Position numbers and translations under genes: made by a program. From Aquaspirillum serpens DSM 68 (GTDB lineage Bacteria; Pseudomonadota; Gammaproteobacteria; Burkholderiales; Aquaspirillaceae): 32,038 nt of DNA. The stretch is taken from NCBI RefSeq assembly GCF_000420525.1, contig NZ_ATVC01000028.1, positions 1 to 32,038 of the forward strand. The letters are read 5' to 3'. Of the stretch, positions 8,820 through 15,245 are shown in pieces (the stretch's first letter is position 1; every line of letters starts with the position of its first letter). Under the pieces are notes generated by a model. The model did not search any database. It was not told where the DNA came from and worked only from the letters and a program-made list of their open reading frames with translations.

Positions 8820-10505
8820 ATGAATACTTTGAAAAGCGGTCATTCTGGCATCCAGACTCTGCGTGTTGAGGATAAAAACCCCTATGCCTCTAAGCTGGTA
8901 TTGATCATTGACAGTGTGCCGGAAATGCAAAGGGCACTGTCGATGACCTTAGCCAGCTTCGGCGCCAATAAGGTGGAATACGCCATGCGCGCAGGTGATG
9001 CTTTATCAAAGTTGGGGCGCTTTGATGTTGATATCATTTTATGTGATTATGATTTAGGTAACGGCTATGACGGTTTACATCTTCTAGCCGAAATTAAAGA
9101 AAAGAACCTCATTAAACAATCTTGCGTCTTTATGATTGTGACTGGTGAGCGCCGAGCGCAGCGGGTGATTGGTGCGGCTGAGTTATCGCCCGATGGCTAT
9201 GTCTTAAAGCCCTTTACCGGCGAACAACTGCGGGTGCGGTTAGAACGGGCCATGATTCGCAAAGAAGCGATGAAATGTGTCGATGATTTTATGCTGCGGC
9301 ATGAGTACCTCGCTGCGATTGCAGAATGTGATAAAAAAATCCTCGCCAAAGATGAATACACCATTGATTTTATGAAGTTAAAAGGCAGCCTTTGTCTAAA
9401 AATCGGTGACCACCTTGGCGCTAAATCAGTCTATGAACAAATTTTGGCGGTCAAGCCCTTGGCGTGGGCACAAATGGGGTTAGGGAAGTGCCTCACCCTC
9501 GCCAAACAATATGATGAAGCTGCCGTCTTATTTAATGAGGTGATTAAAGAAAACGACCAGATCATGGAGGCTTATGATTGGTTGGCAAGAATTCACCATG
9601 CTCGACAAGAGTTTCAAGAAGCGCAACAGGTGACAGAACGGGCAGTTGAGTTATCGCCGGTGGTGTTGCATCGGCAAAAAGCGTTGAGTGAGGCAGCCGT
9701 GCTCAATGGAGATTACGAAACCGCCACCAAAGCGATGAGTAAGACCATTGATATTGCAAAATACTCAACCTATCGCTGTGCGGAAGACTATGCCAACCTT
9801 GCCCGCTTACAGCGGTTAAAAGGTGATATGGAAGAGGCTTTGCAAACGGCTTCGGTCGTCCGTAGAGAATTTCGCAGTGATCCGGTGGCAAAATGGATGG
9901 CTGATTTGGTTGAAAGCCAAATTCAAAAACAAATGGGTAATCCACACCGCGCCCGCGAACTGCTCGACCAAGCTGTCATGCAGTATCAAGACCTTGCGCC
10001 ACTGTTGTCACAAGATGCGCAGTTAGAATTAGTTCACGCCAGCTATCAACAAGGTCGTGATGACATTGGCCAGCAAGTGGTAGAAAAACTGGTCAAAAAT
10101 AACCACGATAATGAAGAAGTGTTGGATAAAATTGCCACCGTGTTTCGTGTTGAAGGCCGTGAGGCAGATGGTCTGGCCTTGATTGCGGAAAACGTCCAAA
10201 GCGTGGTGGATCTTAACAACGATGCGGTGCGTTTGGCACAATCCGGCAAACTGGAAGAAGCGGTCAGCATGTTTATTAAAGCGGTGGAAGAATTGCCATC
10301 GAACAGCCAAATTATGTTGAACGCGGTCAATGCGATTTTAGGCTTTGTCCATCAAAAAGGCTGGCATGAGAGCTATGTCGCCAAAGCACATGGCTATTTA
10401 GATAAAGTGCGTAAACAAGACCCAACCAGTGGGAAATATCAAAAACTGCTACAGGCCTATCGGACTTTGGTACAAAAACACGATAAGCGTGAGTGGTTGG
10501 TCTAA
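8820..10505 (+). CDS. Response regulator with TPR repeats
   Basis: This 561-residue cytoplasmic protein has an N-terminal receiver domain (about 24-145) and a long helical repeat region (about 150-550) with TPR-type units such as GAKSVYEQILAVKP, AQMGLGKCLTLAKQYDEAAVLFNEVI and AYDWLARIHHARQEFQEAQQV. The receiver has the expected phospho-acceptor Asp76 (IILCDYDLG), Thr108 (VTGE) and Lys130 (VLKPF). The acidic pair that binds magnesium is reduced to one Asp at 31 (LIIDSVPEM). It has no DNA-binding or enzymatic output domain, so signalling is probably by protein-protein contact through the TPRs, which is inference. It starts 22 bp after uvrD and is followed by a DUF3460 gene 47 bp downstream, with which it may be co-transcribed. 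No cognate histidine kinase is in the window. Confidence 0.82.
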   Translation: MNTLKSGHSGIQTLRVEDKNPYASKLVLIIDSVPEMQRALSMTLASFGANKVEYAMRAGDALSKLGRFDVDIILCDYDLGNGYDGLHLLAEIKEKNLIKQSCVFMIVTGERRAQRVIGAAELSPDGYVLKPFTGEQLRVRLERAMIRKEAMKCVDDFMLRHEYLAAIAECDKKILAKDEYTIDFMKLKGSLCLKIGDHLGAKSVYEQILAVKPLAWAQMGLGKCLTLAKQYDEAAVLFNEVIKENDQIMEAYDWLARIHHARQEFQEAQQVTERAVELSPVVLHRQKALSEAAVLNGDYETATKAMSKTIDIAKYSTYRCAEDYANLARLQRLKGDMEEALQTASVVRREFRSDPVAKWMADLVESQIQKQMGNPHRARELLDQAVMQYQDLAPLLSQDAQLELVHASYQQGRDDIGQQVVEKLVKNNHDNEEVLDKIATVFRVEGREADGLALIAENVQSVVDLNNDAVRLAQSGKLEEAVSMFIKAVEELPSNSQIMLNAVNAILGFVHQKGWHESYVAKAHGYLDKVRKQDPTSGKYQKLLQAYRTLVQKHDKREWLV

Positions 10506-10552
10506 ATTTTTTTCTGATGATGTTGCAGGATCTTTTTTTGGAGTAAGCAGTC

Positions 10553-10738
10553 ATGGCAATGTATGAATCCGATTTCACCCGATTCATGAATGAATTTTTG
10601 GAAAAGAACCCCCATATCGACGAAGAACGCCGTCGCTTTCGTTTGACTTGGTGGGATAAAAAAGTGGATTTGGATGAGCAAAAACGCTTTAACGCAGCCA
10701 AAGTGAAACAAAAGCCCTATGTTTACCAACCCGAGTAA
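10553..10738 (+). CDS. DUF3460 family small protein
   Basis: This 61-residue protein matches the small DUF3460 family, which I know as conserved in betaproteobacteria. Recognisable features are MYESDFTRFMNEFL at the start, the central WWDKKVDLDEQKRFNAAKV and the C-terminal PYVYQ. It has no signal peptide or membrane segment and is rich in charged and aromatic residues. The function is unknown. GGAG at 10540-10543 serves the ATG at 10553; a second in-frame ATG at 10559 is possible and equally family-like. It follows the receiver-TPR gene and is closed by two hairpins, the second a clear terminator. Confidence 0.82.
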   Translation: MAMYESDFTRFMNEFLEKNPHIDEERRRFRLTWWDKKVDLDEQKRFNAAKVKQKPYVYQPE

Positions 10739-10771
10739 GCTTGGTGCGGTGTTTGACCCGCTGTGCGACAT

Positions 10772-10789
10772 CCCCACTTTCAAGTGGGG
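10772..10789. terminator. Hairpin after the DUF3460 gene
   Basis: CCCCACT-TTCA-AGTGGGG forms a 7-8 bp perfect stem with no T-run. It sits 11 bp upstream of the stronger terminator at 10800 and could be a stabilising stem or part of a double hairpin. Confidence 0.45.
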
Positions 10790-10799
10790 AACCGTTAAC

Positions 10800-10828
10800 A
10801 ACCCGGTCAACGCCGGGTTTTTTGTTTT
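10800..10828 (+). terminator. Intrinsic terminator between DUF3460 and tolR
   Basis: AACCCGG (10800-10806) pairs with CCGGGTT (10813-10819) around a 6-base loop and runs directly into TTTTTGTTTT. This is a textbook rightward terminator. It leaves only 37 bp before the tolR ATG, so tolR must use a promoter overlapping this region or depend on read-through. Confidence 0.85.
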
Positions 10829-10853
10829 ATGACTTTTTCTTAATTTTTTGAAT

Positions 10854-10862
10854 TTATCCACA
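10854..10862 (+). promoter_or_regulatory. Perfect DnaA-box sequence in front of tolR
   Basis: TTATCCACA, the consensus high-affinity DnaA box, ends three bases before the preferred tolR ATG at 10866. A single 9-mer like this has a real chance of occurring by accident in 32 kb, and no second box was noticed nearby, so a regulatory role is only possible. Confidence 0.3.
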
Positions 10863-10865
10863 ACT

Positions 10866-11273
10866 ATGCTCAACCGCCGTGCCCGTCGCTCTATGAGCCA
10901 AATGAATGTGGTGCCGTATATCGACGTCATGTTGGTATTACTGGTGATTTTCATGGTGACAACACCGATGTTTTCACCTGGCATCGTTAATTTGCCAAGT
11001 GTCGGGCAAGCCGCGCAAGTGGAAAGTGAACCGATCCAAGTCACAGTCGACAAAGAGGGTCACTATGCTGTCAGCGATAAGGGAAAAACCGAAACAGCAA
11101 CATCCTTAGACGCAGTCTTGCCACTGGTACAAGCCCACCTTGGCCCACAAGGACAACGACCCGTGGTGATTTCTGCTGACAAAACCGTTGCCTATGAAAA
11201 GGTAATGGATGTGATGTCTGTGTTACAAAAAGCAAATATTGCCCGAGTTGGCCTGCTGGTTAAAACCGAATGA
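10866..11273 (+). CDS. tolR: TolR, Tol-Pal energising subunit
   Basis: TolR is the inner-membrane partner of TolQ in the proton-driven motor that works TolA and pulls the outer membrane inward during division. The preferred start is ATG 10866 (MLNRRARRSM, 135 aa); a TTG at 10848 would add six residues. Residues 14-36 form the single membrane helix, NVVPYIDVMLVLLVIFMV, with Asp20 as the proton-path Asp equivalent to Asp23 of E. coli TolR. The rest is the periplasmic ExbD/TolR domain, ending in VLQKANIARVGLLVK. No clear Shine-Dalgarno was found. Oddly, tolQ, which normally sits directly upstream, is missing; instead an intrinsic terminator lies 38 bp before the ATG. The stop codon overlaps the tolA start (ATGA), so the two are translationally coupled. 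Confidence 0.87.
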   Translation: MLNRRARRSMSQMNVVPYIDVMLVLLVIFMVTTPMFSPGIVNLPSVGQAAQVESEPIQVTVDKEGHYAVSDKGKTETATSLDAVLPLVQAHLGPQGQRPVVISADKTVAYEKVMDVMSVLQKANIARVGLLVKTE

Positions 11274-12391
11274 TGAAGCACGACAACGAGCAACATAATT
11301 GGCGTGGGTTAGCCATCTCTATTCTGTTGCACCTGCTGCTGTTAGGGGCTTTTTTGTTGCAATTTACCTCCCCCCCCAAACCACAACCGAGTGCGATTGG
11401 TGTGGAGTTGTGGTCGGCACCACCGCCTCCACCGCCGCCGCCATTGCTAGGTAGCCAAACCGCTACGACTAGCGCGGCCCCAGTGAGCGAAAGCAAGCCT
11501 ACGCCACCACCGCCGCCGCCACCTGAAATCGAAGCGCCCACGCCAACACCCACACCGCTACCCACGCCACCGGTGAAGACGGATATTGCGCTAAAGAAAA
11601 AAGAGGTTGAGCCGGAAGTGAAAGAGAAGAAAGTCGAGCCGCCAAAACCAAAAGAAGAGAAGAAAGAACCTGAGAAAAAAGTCGAAAAGAAAGTTGAACC
11701 GAAACCTGAAAAGAAACCCGAACCGGAGAAGAAGGTAGAAGAAAAGAAGGTTGAGAAAAAACCAGAACCAAAAGTGGAAGAAAAAAAGGTCGAACCTAAG
11801 AAAACAGAAGCAAAACCTGAACCTAATAAAAAGGTAGAAAACAAACCTGAGGCAAAAGACAGCAAAAAAACCGAGAGCAGCGCCAAAGACAATAAAGGTA
11901 ATGAAAAAGGTGATAGCAAAGGCGCAGAAAAAACCGTTGCTTCGCCAGTCAATAAGGTTGGGGGCTCTGGCAGCAAACCGGTGAAAGCGGATAATCCATT
12001 TGCAGATGATTTATTAGCAGACCTTGATAGCACCAATAGCACGCACAAACCTAACAGCACCAAAACCCAAGCGGGGGCGCCCAATGGTGTCGCCGGGGGT
12101 GGGAGCAGCGGTGGTCATACCAAGGGCTATGCAGATTTGGTGATTGCACGGGTTAAACCACGGGTGCAAGTGCCAGATGATGTCACAGGTAATCCCAAAG
12201 CAGTGTTAGAAGTGACGTTATTACCGAGTTTAGAAGTGCGAGAGGTCAAACTGCTGCAGTCATCGGGTCATGCTGGCTATGATGATGCGGTACAACGCGC
12301 TGTTTGGTCGGCAAAAACCTTCCCACCTTTATTAACAGGGATGAATTTCTCGGATGTGCGTAAAATTCGCTTAGAATTCCGCCCACGTTAA
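11270..12391 (+). CDS. tolA: TolA, Tol-Pal spanning protein
   Basis: TolA links the TolQR motor in the inner membrane to TolB and Pal at the outer membrane. At 373 residues it shows an N-terminal membrane helix (about 12-33) with the SxxxH motif (Ser17, His21) that contacts TolQR. A proline-rich stretch with two poly-Pro runs (about 50-100) follows, then a very long Lys/Glu/Pro/Val tract (about 105-215) of KKVEPKPE-type units, a Gly/Ser/Asn linker, and the C-terminal domain III (about 285-373) with YADLVIARVKPRV, LEVTLLPSLEV and the DDAVQRAVWSAKTFPPL block. The middle region lacks the Ala-rich helix of E. coli TolA and is TonB-like in composition; domain III and the context decide for TolA. 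ATG 11270 overlaps the tolR stop, and a second ATG follows at once. Confidence 0.88.
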   Translation: MMKHDNEQHNWRGLAISILLHLLLLGAFLLQFTSPPKPQPSAIGVELWSAPPPPPPPPLLGSQTATTSAAPVSESKPTPPPPPPPEIEAPTPTPTPLPTPPVKTDIALKKKEVEPEVKEKKVEPPKPKEEKKEPEKKVEKKVEPKPEKKPEPEKKVEEKKVEKKPEPKVEEKKVEPKKTEAKPEPNKKVENKPEAKDSKKTESSAKDNKGNEKGDSKGAEKTVASPVNKVGGSGSKPVKADNPFADDLLADLDSTNSTHKPNSTKTQAGAPNGVAGGGSSGGHTKGYADLVIARVKPRVQVPDDVTGNPKAVLEVTLLPSLEVREVKLLQSSGHAGYDDAVQRAVWSAKTFPPLLTGMNFSDVRKIRLEFRPR

Positions 12392-12444
12392 TGGGCAGTT
12401 AACCCGTTATTGCTATGGTCATCGGTAAGAGGATAATTGATTTT

Positions 12445-13731
12445 ATGCCAAAGTTTTTATTTCACTATGTCTTGTTGCCTTTGCTGCTGCTATGCAGCCT
12501 ATCGGTACGCGCCAATGATTTAACCATTGAAGTGGTGGGCGGTGGCACCAACCGCCATGCCATCGCATTGCCGGAGTTTGGCCTCGAAAGTGCTTTGCCC
12601 GGGGGCCTAACGCCGATTATCCAAAGCAATCTGGCACGTACCGGTGTGTTTTCGTTTGTGGATCCCAATAAGGTCAATAACCGTCCGATTGACCCAGCGC
12701 AAATTGATTACCCCGCGTGGCTAGGTGCTGGCACGATGTCGATTGCAGTCGGCAAAGTCACGGCAGGTGCTGGTGGTACGATTACGGTCGAATTTCATTT
12801 ATTCGATGCGGCACGAAAAACCCGCTTAACTGGTGCCAGCTTTAGCATTCAACCTAACCAGTCGCGCCAATTAGCTCACCGTATTGCTGACATGATTTAT
12901 GAAGCGATTACCGGCAAAAAAGGGATTTTCGGCACACGTATTGCCTATGTGATTAAGCACAGCGCCAACAGCTATTCTCTACAAGTGGCGGATGCCGATG
13001 GTGCCAACGGATTTACGCTATTGCGTTCTTCCGAGCCGATTATCTCGCCAGCTTGGAGCCCCGAGGGAGGACGCTTGGCGTATGTTTCTTTTGAAAGCAA
13101 AAAACCGGTTGTCTATGTGCATGATGTCAGCAGCGGTAGCCGCCGTGCGGTTGCTAACTTCAAAGGCTCCAACTCAGCGCCAGCATGGAGTCCCGACGGT
13201 AGCCGCCTTGCCGTGGTATTAACGCGCGATGGTCATTCACAAATTTATGCTGTTTCGGCCAATGGTGGCGAAGCAGTCCGCTTGTCCAACAGCAACGCCA
13301 TTGATACCGAACCGGCTTACAGCGCTGACGGCAGCCGGATTTATTTCACATCTGACCGCGCCGGTGGGCCACAAATTTATGTGATGGGCGCCGGTGGAGG
13401 AAGCGCACAACGGGTGACTTTCGAAGGCAACTACAATGTCTCGCCTACACCTGCACCAGATGGCACCGCATTAGCCTTTGTCCGCCGTGAGGCAGGTCGT
13501 TTCCGTGTGATGGTGCAAGAAACGGCCACTGGCCAAGCGAACTATGTTACTGACACCCATTATGATGAATCACCTAGCTTTGCACCGAATGGACAAATGT
13601 TGGTCTATGCCAGCGAGCAAGGCGGGCGAGGGGTTTTATTTACGGTTACCCGCGATGGATCGACAAAAACCCGCTTAACCACCAGTGGCGGTGATATTCG
13701 CGCACCGGTGTGGGGGCCATATCCACGTTAG
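12445..13731 (+). CDS. tolB: TolB periplasmic propeller protein
   Basis: TolB is a periplasmic protein that binds Pal and the C-terminal domain of TolA. The preferred start is ATG 12445 (MPKFLFHYV, 428 aa), preceded by AAGAGGA; an ATG at 12415 lacks a ribosome site. Residues 1-22 are a Sec signal peptide, with cleavage likely after SVRA. Residues about 23-165 are the N-terminal domain (LTIEVVGGGTNRHAIALPEF) and 170-428 the six-bladed beta-propeller, with repeated WSPEGGRLAYVSF-, WSPDGSRLAVV- and YSADGSRIYFTSD-type blades. The length is normal for the family. It lies 53 bp after tolA and 43 bp before pal. Confidence 0.94.
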   Translation: MPKFLFHYVLLPLLLLCSLSVRANDLTIEVVGGGTNRHAIALPEFGLESALPGGLTPIIQSNLARTGVFSFVDPNKVNNRPIDPAQIDYPAWLGAGTMSIAVGKVTAGAGGTITVEFHLFDAARKTRLTGASFSIQPNQSRQLAHRIADMIYEAITGKKGIFGTRIAYVIKHSANSYSLQVADADGANGFTLLRSSEPIISPAWSPEGGRLAYVSFESKKPVVYVHDVSSGSRRAVANFKGSNSAPAWSPDGSRLAVVLTRDGHSQIYAVSANGGEAVRLSNSNAIDTEPAYSADGSRIYFTSDRAGGPQIYVMGAGGGSAQRVTFEGNYNVSPTPAPDGTALAFVRREAGRFRVMVQETATGQANYVTDTHYDESPSFAPNGQMLVYASEQGGRGVLFTVTRDGSTKTRLTTSGGDIRAPVWGPYPR

Positions 13732-13774
13732 GCAAACCGTGTTTTTTGATTGTGAATGTTGATTGGAGAATTTG

Positions 13775-14335
13775 ATGATGTGGAAAAAAGTCTTATTGGC
13801 CGCGATGGTTGCAGGTTCGTTAGCCGCTTGCTCTAGCCCCAAAGGCCCAACTGATCCCAACGCCGCCGGTGCTGCTGGCATGAATGGTAAAAATGGTGCC
13901 AACGCCAGTGGTATGTACGGTCAAGGTGGTCTGAATGGCAGTGGGAACGGGATGGGCGCGGATGGCAGCGGCAATCCACTGACCGATCCTAAGAGCGTGC
14001 TGTCCAAACGCAGCGTATTTTTTGACTTCGATAGCTCGTTGGTCAAAGACGAATACAAACCTTTGGTACAAGCTCACAGCGAATTTTTGAAGAAAAACCA
14101 AACTCGCAAAGTGATTATCCAAGGTAATACTGACGTACGCGGTAGCAGCGAGTACAACTTGGCCTTGGGTCAACGCCGCGCTGAAAGCGTGAAAAGCATG
14201 ATGCGCGTGATTGGTGTCCCAGAAAATCAGCTGGAAGCGGTCAGCTACGGTAAAGAAAAACCCCGCGCCACCGGTATGGGTGAAGCCGACCACGCACAAA
14301 ACCGCCGCAGCGATATTGTGTACGATGGCGAATAA
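13775..14335 (+). CDS. pal: Pal, peptidoglycan-associated lipoprotein
   Basis: Pal is an outer-membrane lipoprotein that binds peptidoglycan and TolB. The start is ATG 13775 (MMWKKVLL, 186 aa), with GGAG six bases upstream; a TTG at 13763 is open but unlikely. The signal peptide ends in the lipobox LAAC (Cys19). Residues about 25-70 form an unusual Gly/Asn/Ala/Met-rich linker (GMNGKNGANASG and similar). Residues about 80-186 form the OmpA-like domain, with VFFDFDSSLVKDEY, the NTDVRGSSEYNLALGQRRAE peptidoglycan-binding block and the NRRSDIVY end. The usual GHTD is GNTD here. A strong hairpin lies 29 bp after the stop, before cpoB. Confidence 0.93.
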   Translation: MMWKKVLLAAMVAGSLAACSSPKGPTDPNAAGAAGMNGKNGANASGMYGQGGLNGSGNGMGADGSGNPLTDPKSVLSKRSVFFDFDSSLVKDEYKPLVQAHSEFLKKNQTRKVIIQGNTDVRGSSEYNLALGQRRAESVKSMMRVIGVPENQLEAVSYGKEKPRATGMGEADHAQNRRSDIVYDGE

Positions 14336-14438: not shown

Positions 14439-15245
14439 ATGAGTGGAAAAGTGAAAAAGATTAAACTGCCGATGGTGTTGGTATGTAGCAGTGTCTTATT
14501 GGCCAGCTGTGCCAGTGTGGGAGAGGTCGACGCAACACGCCGTCAGTTGGCTGAATTAAATCAACGCTCACAAGAGCGATTTACCACCCTAGAAAGCCGC
14601 CTGAGCAATGAACGGCTATTAGAATTGGTGAATCAAGTCGATCGTATGAGCCAAGATATTGCTAAATTGCGTGGCGATATGGAAGTCCTCAACTACACCT
14701 TACAAACCACACAAAAACGGCAAAACGATCTTTATAACGATCTCGATCTCCGTCTAGCACCACTCGAAGGCAAGCCTGCCGGCGGCTCGGGTTCGATTAC
14801 CACCGACCCCAGCATGAGCAATGGCAATCCAGCCACCGCTACCAGCCCCGCACCAGCCGTCGCCCCCGACCCAGTGCAACTCGAATACAGCAAAGCTTTA
14901 GAAAGCCTGCGGGCACGCCAATTTAATCAGGCCATCCCCGCCCTGAAAAACTTTATCGACAACCGCAGCAGTGCCCCGCAAGTCGCTGATGCCCAATACT
15001 GGCTTGGTGTTGCCTACACCGCCGAACGGCAGTGGAAGAATGCGATTGCGGCACACAAGTCGTTTGTTGACAGCCATCCCAACCACGCCAAAGTCCCCGA
15101 GGCATTGCGCAACATTGGCAATTGTTACCGTGAATTGGGTGATAAGGCCGGCATGAAAACCGCGTGGGACAGCCTGTTAAAACGCTTCCCGAAAAGCGAA
15201 GCAGCGGCCAAAGTCAAACAACAGTTAGCCGCCCAAAATAGCTAA
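14439..15245 (+). CDS. cpoB: CpoB/YbgF-like Tol-Pal accessory protein with lipobox
   Basis: CpoB coordinates Tol-Pal action with septal peptidoglycan synthesis. This 268-residue protein shows an N-terminal coiled-coil region (about 30-110, EVDATRRQLAELNQRSQERF to LDLRLAPLEG), a Pro/Ala/Ser/Thr linker (about 112-145), and C-terminal TPR repeats (about 148-265) with EYSKALESLRARQFNQAI, DAQYWLGVAYTAERQWKNA and KVPEALRNIGNCYRELG, typical of the family. The signal peptide ends in LASC (Cys24), a lipobox, so the protein is predicted to be membrane-anchored. E. coli CpoB is a soluble periplasmic protein, so this is a notable difference. The Shine-Dalgarno is weak, and an internal ATG at 14472 would shorten the signal peptide. 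It is the last gene of the Tol-Pal cluster; purE follows after 137 bp. Confidence 0.85.
   Translation: MSGKVKKIKLPMVLVCSSVLLASCASVGEVDATRRQLAELNQRSQERFTTLESRLSNERLLELVNQVDRMSQDIAKLRGDMEVLNYTLQTTQKRQNDLYNDLDLRLAPLEGKPAGGSGSITTDPSMSNGNPATATSPAPAVAPDPVQLEYSKALESLRARQFNQAIPALKNFIDNRSSAPQVADAQYWLGVAYTAERQWKNAIAAHKSFVDSHPNHAKVPEALRNIGNCYRELGDKAGMKTAWDSLLKRFPKSEAAAKVKQQLAAQNS

Follow-up and report, generated by a model that had tools for sequence, protein, structure and literature searches.

tolQ lies apart from tolR in Aquaspirillum serpens DSM 68, an inherited division of the Tol-Pal genes shared with Chromobacterium, Vogesella and Laribacter relatives

The Tol-Pal genes of Escherichia coli form the canonical cluster ybgC-tolQ-tolR-tolA-tolB-pal-cpoB (PMC12204202, PMC7391070), from which ybgC is sometimes absent (PMC7391070). 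Adjacent genes for the two motor subunits, TolQ and TolR, are usual, and this linkage is often taken as keeping their ratio right. Other divisions of the tol-pal genes have been described, either with tolQRAB and pal-cpoB at separate places or with tolQRA separate from tolB-pal-cpoB; in these too the system is in two places, but TolQ and TolR stay together (PMC12204202). A split tolQ was stated in 2011 for Laribacter hongkongensis and Chromobacterium violaceum (PMC3125207), in what is, within the available part of that article, one genome-survey sentence without location, neighbours, origin or regulation.

The locus described here comes from the draft genome of Aquaspirillum serpens DSM 68, another member of the L. 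hongkongensis/C. violaceum split clade; the window is the whole stretch analysed, 32,038 nucleotides of one contig (C28). The system shares with that of E. coli its proteins, the order tolR-tolA-tolB-pal-cpoB and key residues, but its tolQ is distant and not before tolR, and the genome has no ybgC match above cut-off. Unlike the divided loci of PMC12204202, the break here falls between the two motor subunits themselves. The sequence-only reading of this DNA took the arrangement as more surprising than it is, since the split is a long-standing feature of the clade and has been published for two species. What is new are the tsaC-tolQ and DUF3460-(methyltransferase)-tolR contexts, the lack of ybgC, the probable single origin and a candidate ECF-sigma (sigma-E-like) promoter dyad.

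That reading had the Tol-Pal cluster beginning at tolR, 3′ of a DUF3460 gene and an intrinsic terminator, and the ORFs are as it described them. On the plus strand, tolR (10866..11273; 135 aa from an ATG) is followed by tolA (11270..12391), which overlaps the tolR stop, then by tolB (12415..13731), pal (13763..14335) and a cpoB/ybgF-type gene (14439..15245). TolA (TIGR02794, 95.3 bits, cut-off 59.45), TolB (TIGR02800, 487.3 bits, cut-off 343.15) and Pal (TIGR02802, 128.9 bits, cut-off 125.35) exceed their family cut-offs, TolR only just passes (TIGR02801, 131.5 bits, cut-off 127.3), and the CpoB-type protein, at 89.7 bits, is 0.4 below the TIGR02795 cut-off of 90.1. For pal, the ORF is counted from its first TTG; translation probably begins a few codons further in. 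TolR carries the proton-path Asp20 that had been claimed, which lies in an NVVPYID motif, and also Phe29; the solved structures closest to it are ExbD and TolR. Ser17 and His21 of TolA are spaced like the TolQ-binding Ser18 and His22 of E. coli.

Two plus-strand genes precede the cluster. The first (8820..10505) encodes a TPR/response-regulator-like protein, the TPR label being read from sequence, and tblastn places a homologue 5′ of DUF3460 in Vogesella and an Aquitalea-type genome as well (L098, L102). The second (10553..10738) encodes a 61-aa protein that, following the sequence-only reading and not Pfam, we take to be of the DUF3460 family; among split relatives its gene adjoins the cluster that begins with tolR. 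Between it and tolR, on the same strand, lie a stable hairpin without a T-run (10771..10790; 8-bp stem, −13.6 kcal/mol, z −3.67) and the intrinsic terminator (10800..10828), whose hairpin (10800-10819) has eight pairs, five of them G-C, and is followed by TTTTGTTTT. This hairpin is the strongest of four terminator-like sites in 10300-11300, for which shuffles average 1.3, and the reported 37 bp do separate the end of the T-run (10828) from the tolR ATG (10866). The terminator is not conserved before tolR: the gaps of relatives hold a terminator-like site in 5 of 31 cases, with about 3 expected.

No MotA/TolQ/ExbB gene had been seen in the window, and a partner for TolR was expected elsewhere; the whole genome bears out both points. 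A genome-wide Pfam MotA/ExbB search gave four matches above cut-off, on contigs C14, C8, C23 and C26 and none on the window contig, and the C14 protein is a TolQ (C14:17781-18476; 231 codons from a GTG), the sole protein of the genome above the NCBIfam TolQ cut-off (TIGR02796, 278.4 bits, cut-off 221). It falls below the cut-offs of the ExbB model TIGR02797 (141.4 bits, cut-off 206.2) and of the stricter E. coli-type model NF008066 (258.7 bits, cut-off 403), and among solved structures it matches TolQ chains best (E 3e-67). In the structure-chain alignment, its Thr148 and Thr181 align with the channel threonines Thr145 and Thr178 of E. coli, for which a functional role is described (PMC7391070). 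The gene lies 47 bp 3′ of a tsaC-type gene, which at 170 bits falls 5 short of the TsaC model cut-off, and is followed on its 3′ side by a convergent pair that its sequence names as HigA/HigB-like. By the same kind of naming, one MotA gene adjoins fliA/flhF/flhA-like genes and another adjoins MotB. The C23 ExbB gene lies between tonB and exbD, its ExbB and ExbD products having been scanned with models.

The same separation runs through the family. In all six family genomes (four genera, with a Laribacter MAG, G002, among them), tolQ has no adjacent tolR, and each genome has a TolQ above cut-off. The one-contig genome G004 has tolQ at 3,953,648 and tolR at 3,089,669, 864 kb apart, and in G003 the two genes are 119 kb apart on one contig. 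tolR and its upstream DNA are seen in five of the six, with no tolQ upstream in any. In the sixth, the MAG (87% complete), there is no TolR beyond the model's ExbD-like matches, probably owing to incompleteness.

We scanned named genomes with the TolQ of the window genome and used the best 80 of 140 relatives. Among these best 80, the top 46 TolQ loci (65-78% identity), including Chromobacterium, Vogesella and Laribacter kin and all Neisseriales-type by partly inferred assignment, are split in 45 cases. The one joined locus is that of Formivibrio citricus, tolQ-tolR-tolA-tolB-pal-cpoB with ruvC upstream, the common placing of the tol-pal cluster (PMC12204202). The remaining 34 of the 80 (at most 59% identity), mostly from gammaproteobacteria and other betaproteobacteria, are joined without exception. 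From the order, 120 genomes were evenly drawn; the seven without TolQ were left out, and of the 113 with TolQ under the limit, seven are split: G000 and G001 (f1), G032, G079 and G121 (f28), and G046 and G091 (f42). Five of the 45 split named loci belong to genomes that also appear here under G numbers; a 399-genome scan gives TolQ only, and the split count does not draw on it. In the 106 joined genomes, tolR stands beside tolQ on the same strand with a median gap of 35 bp and four gaps of 0.9-1.7 kb. Two further candidates for split genomes, G098 and G120, proved joined on fetching, their adjacent tolR having merely scored too low to be listed.

Some joined loci carry genes between tolQ and tolR. 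All three sampled genomes of the joined family f22 (G116, G026, G073) have a TraB/GumN-like gene there, named from sequence (L112:2597-3472, L256:464-1339 and a like stretch of L277), and G101 has two tandem methyltransferase-like genes spanning 1.7 kb (L111:2423-4092). Four sampled genomes, two of f41 and two of f45, have no TolQ under 1e-65, and further f45 genomes are among those listed without a TolQ match in the larger sample. These two families are possibly Neisseriaceae; Tol-Pal is given as absent in Neisseria meningitidis (PMC12204202).

A single origin of the split is probable, and we favour it because the neighbourhoods are shared on both sides and the constrained tree is not rejected. 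In the TolQ+TolR tree, the ten rows from f1 and f28 group as a single clade (100/99) with f5, f22 and Formivibrio as its closest neighbours, and the two low-GC f42 rows stand elsewhere on a long branch with odd composition. Had the split arisen two or more times, once in f1 and f28 and separately in f42, this would agree with the free tree, which requires two changes (none of 200 bootstrap trees has one), and with the difference in tolQ neighbours, tsaC-tolQ as against the purD-tolQ-ubiG order of f42. Yet forcing all 12 split rows into one group gives a tree that the AU test does not reject (p-AU 0.766) and whose likelihood exceeds that of the free search by 7.18; the f42 rows are those with the long branch and odd composition. 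Moreover, purD near tolQ and DUF3460-methyltransferase immediately 5′ of tolR are common to the f42 and f1/f28 sides. In none of the 12 joined relatives checked (f5, f14, f22, f33 and Formivibrio) does DUF3460 stand beside either tolR or a methyltransferase gene. Independent splits are unlikely.

Of the 45 split named loci among the best 80 of 140 relatives, 43 have tsaC directly 5′ of tolQ; it was not found before tolQ in two Paludibacterium loci (L146, L154). The gap from tsaC to the matched tolQ start is 6-51 bp, with a median of 23 (50 rows, 46 distinct genomes). In Paludibacterium denitrificans (L161:3888-6564), purD and tsaC before tolQ look broken into pieces, perhaps by uncorrected long-read errors. 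For the tolR half, f28 and f42 commonly have the order DUF3460-methyltransferase-tolR. The window genome and G004, which is of another genus of the family, have no methyltransferase gene between DUF3460 and tolR, and the direct adjacency of these two recurs there; in G001, G003 and G005, DUF3460 is elsewhere and not beside tolR. Three joined relatives (G018, G066, G109) have purD adjoining tsaC, and from this and the lone DUF3460 of joined relatives it seems that tolQ came behind an older purD-tsaC region and tolRAB-pal-cpoB behind DUF3460. The latter half would have arrived behind both DUF3460 and the methyltransferase gene, which the window genome would later have lost.

The sequence-only reading placed ybgC among the genes absent from their usual position. 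It is indeed absent before tolR, but rather than being merely out of place it appears missing: the genome has no YbgC above the cut-off of 141.35, its best match being a protein of contig C30 at 59.1 bits. None of the seven split genomes of the sample has a YbgC above cut-off, nor do the joined relatives of f5, f22 and f33 and two of the three of f14, the third (G018) having one. Since the gene is missing in joined relatives too, it was probably lost before the split, and the ancestor of the Chromobacterium, Vogesella and Laribacter lineages would already have been without it when the split arose, most likely once. The Laribacter-type genome G001 has a minus-strand thioesterase-like gene about 750 bp upstream of tolR (G001:C1:253890-254261) that scores 56.9 bits on the YbgC model, far below cut-off.

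We are highly confident that the genome encodes a complete, ordinary Tol-Pal machine in two places, with a split that is inherited, most likely from one origin. The split is an old inherited rearrangement and not a missing part. tolRAB-pal-cpoB make up one cluster in the window, and tolQ comes after tsaC in a two-gene pair on a different contig, the two presumably being separate transcription units. The separately made TolQ and TolR are expected to form the usual TolQ-TolR stator driving TolA, because the residues of the 5:2 proton-driven motor are present in both. A lineage with parted tolQ and tolR is a natural test of whether linkage matters.

An ExbB-like protein might instead serve TolR, with the C14 gene a paralogue of different role. 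In E. coli, ExbB can replace TolQ in part; the C23 ExbB scores 185 bits on the TolQ model, and the best solved match of TolR is ExbD, about equal to E. coli TolR (E 1e-13 and 1e-12, respectively). The C23 ExbB, however, sits in its own tonB-exbB-exbD group and remains below the TolQ cut-off of 221, the C14 protein is far above it, and all six family genomes have retained a TolQ gene. We consider this alternative very improbable; the ExbB-like substitute suggested earlier is not needed. A fault of the 119-contig draft, by which tolQ and ybgC had dropped out of a true position before tolR or been joined elsewhere, has practically no likelihood. The same split is found in the one-contig genome G004, on one contig of G003 and in 45 named genomes, and DUF3460 directly before tolR recurs in G004, so that an assembly join at 10740-10865 is not the cause. 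Nor does a tolQ just outside the window in the same transcript apply, as tolQ is distant in every relative examined. The genome also has an ExbD-type gene on contig C100 (G000:C100:2871-3296, L012; minus strand), before an lpxK-kdsB-adk-like run. The 228 bp between this gene and the contig end hold no recognisable ExbB, and the four MotA/ExbB matches of the genome leave none for it; it is possibly an orphan ExbD or reflects a contig-end gap.

Of these findings, the promoter signal most deserves attention. A sigma-70 scan of window positions 10300-11300 gave 0 sites, and the relatives' tolR gaps gave 3 in 29, with 3.0 expected. A −10-like hexamer, TATGAC (10828..10833, plus strand), lies 32 nt 5′ of the tolR ATG and may act as a promoter element; at its position G004 has TATCAT and several Chromobacterium genomes TATGAT, and 14 of 17 non-redundant gaps, the window included, have a −10-like hexamer 33-65 nt before the matched start. 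Relatives show a second, stronger signal: 29 of 38 rows, or 28 of 35 when only distinct sequences are counted, have GAACTT-16 nt-GTCTGA/GTCAGA within 330 bp 5′ of tolR, against 1.0 expected from shuffles. An unbiased count found GAAC-N17-GGTC to be the commonest dyad, present in 11 of 17 non-redundant intergenic gaps (maximum of 6 in 200 shuffled sets); it used intergenic DNA alone, as coding sequence swamped the signal when upstream coding regions were included. The −35 element of E. coli sigma-E is GGAACTT (PMC3397946); the sigma-E consensus is not given in the passages of PMC4577112, PMC5333181 and PMC6941012.

Over 33 distinct split genomes (34 rows, one genome appearing twice and negative both times), the dyad stands before tolR in 25 rows (0.56 expected; 25 of 33 genomes), before tsaC in 11 rows (0.35 expected; 11 of 33) and before both in 10 of 33 genomes, all Vogesella-type or Crenobacter-type; the rows in these counts are related, not independent. 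The contrast in column identity (0.91 and 0.83, spacer 0.49) is in part circular, the rows having been picked by motif. A GAAC-N15..18-GTC dyad is absent upstream of the window tolR, and the window genome is without the tsaC dyad too. Genome-wide, the strict form GAACTT-N15/16-GTCWGA shows no enrichment, with 11 matches across 10 genomes as against 16 for the reversed control, and only 2 of the 11 are recognised tolR sites (G127, G148). Of 64 joined loci, 22 have the loose motif in the 900 bp 5′ of tolQ, counted without a shuffle control, and several have it at one shared position that is probably coding sequence.

We offer tentatively, as a possibility drawn from sequence patterns, that after the parting of the two motor genes the halves came under common stress control: an ECF-type (sigma-E-like) sigma factor would read GAACTT...GGTCT before tolR and, in Vogesella-type and Crenobacter-type genomes, a matching site before tsaC-tolQ, so that the unlinked operons would be co-induced by envelope stress. 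For Chromobacterium, Aquitalea and Pseudogulbenkiania, where the tolRAB-pal half alone has the site, the supply of TolR and that of TolQ would be set separately, TolQ following tsaC, a tRNA-modification gene; the window genome would have lost both dyads together with the methyltransferase gene and would rely on a plain promoter beyond the terminator. Such a shared promoter, lacking in the window genome, could re-couple the halves of the motor and, if this is true, a split operon would have been re-joined by regulation. Among the papers listed in the mostly open-access literature covered, none appears to deal with the tsaC-tolQ gene pair or with a tolR promoter of sigma-E type.

Annotators and operon-based searches that expect a motor gene beside tolR will miss TolQ here. 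The NCBIfam model NF007722 (PRK10414.1) is called 'tol-pal system-associated acyl-CoA thioesterase', yet its matches to ExbB and TolQ span almost the full length of both, and its description looks wrong.
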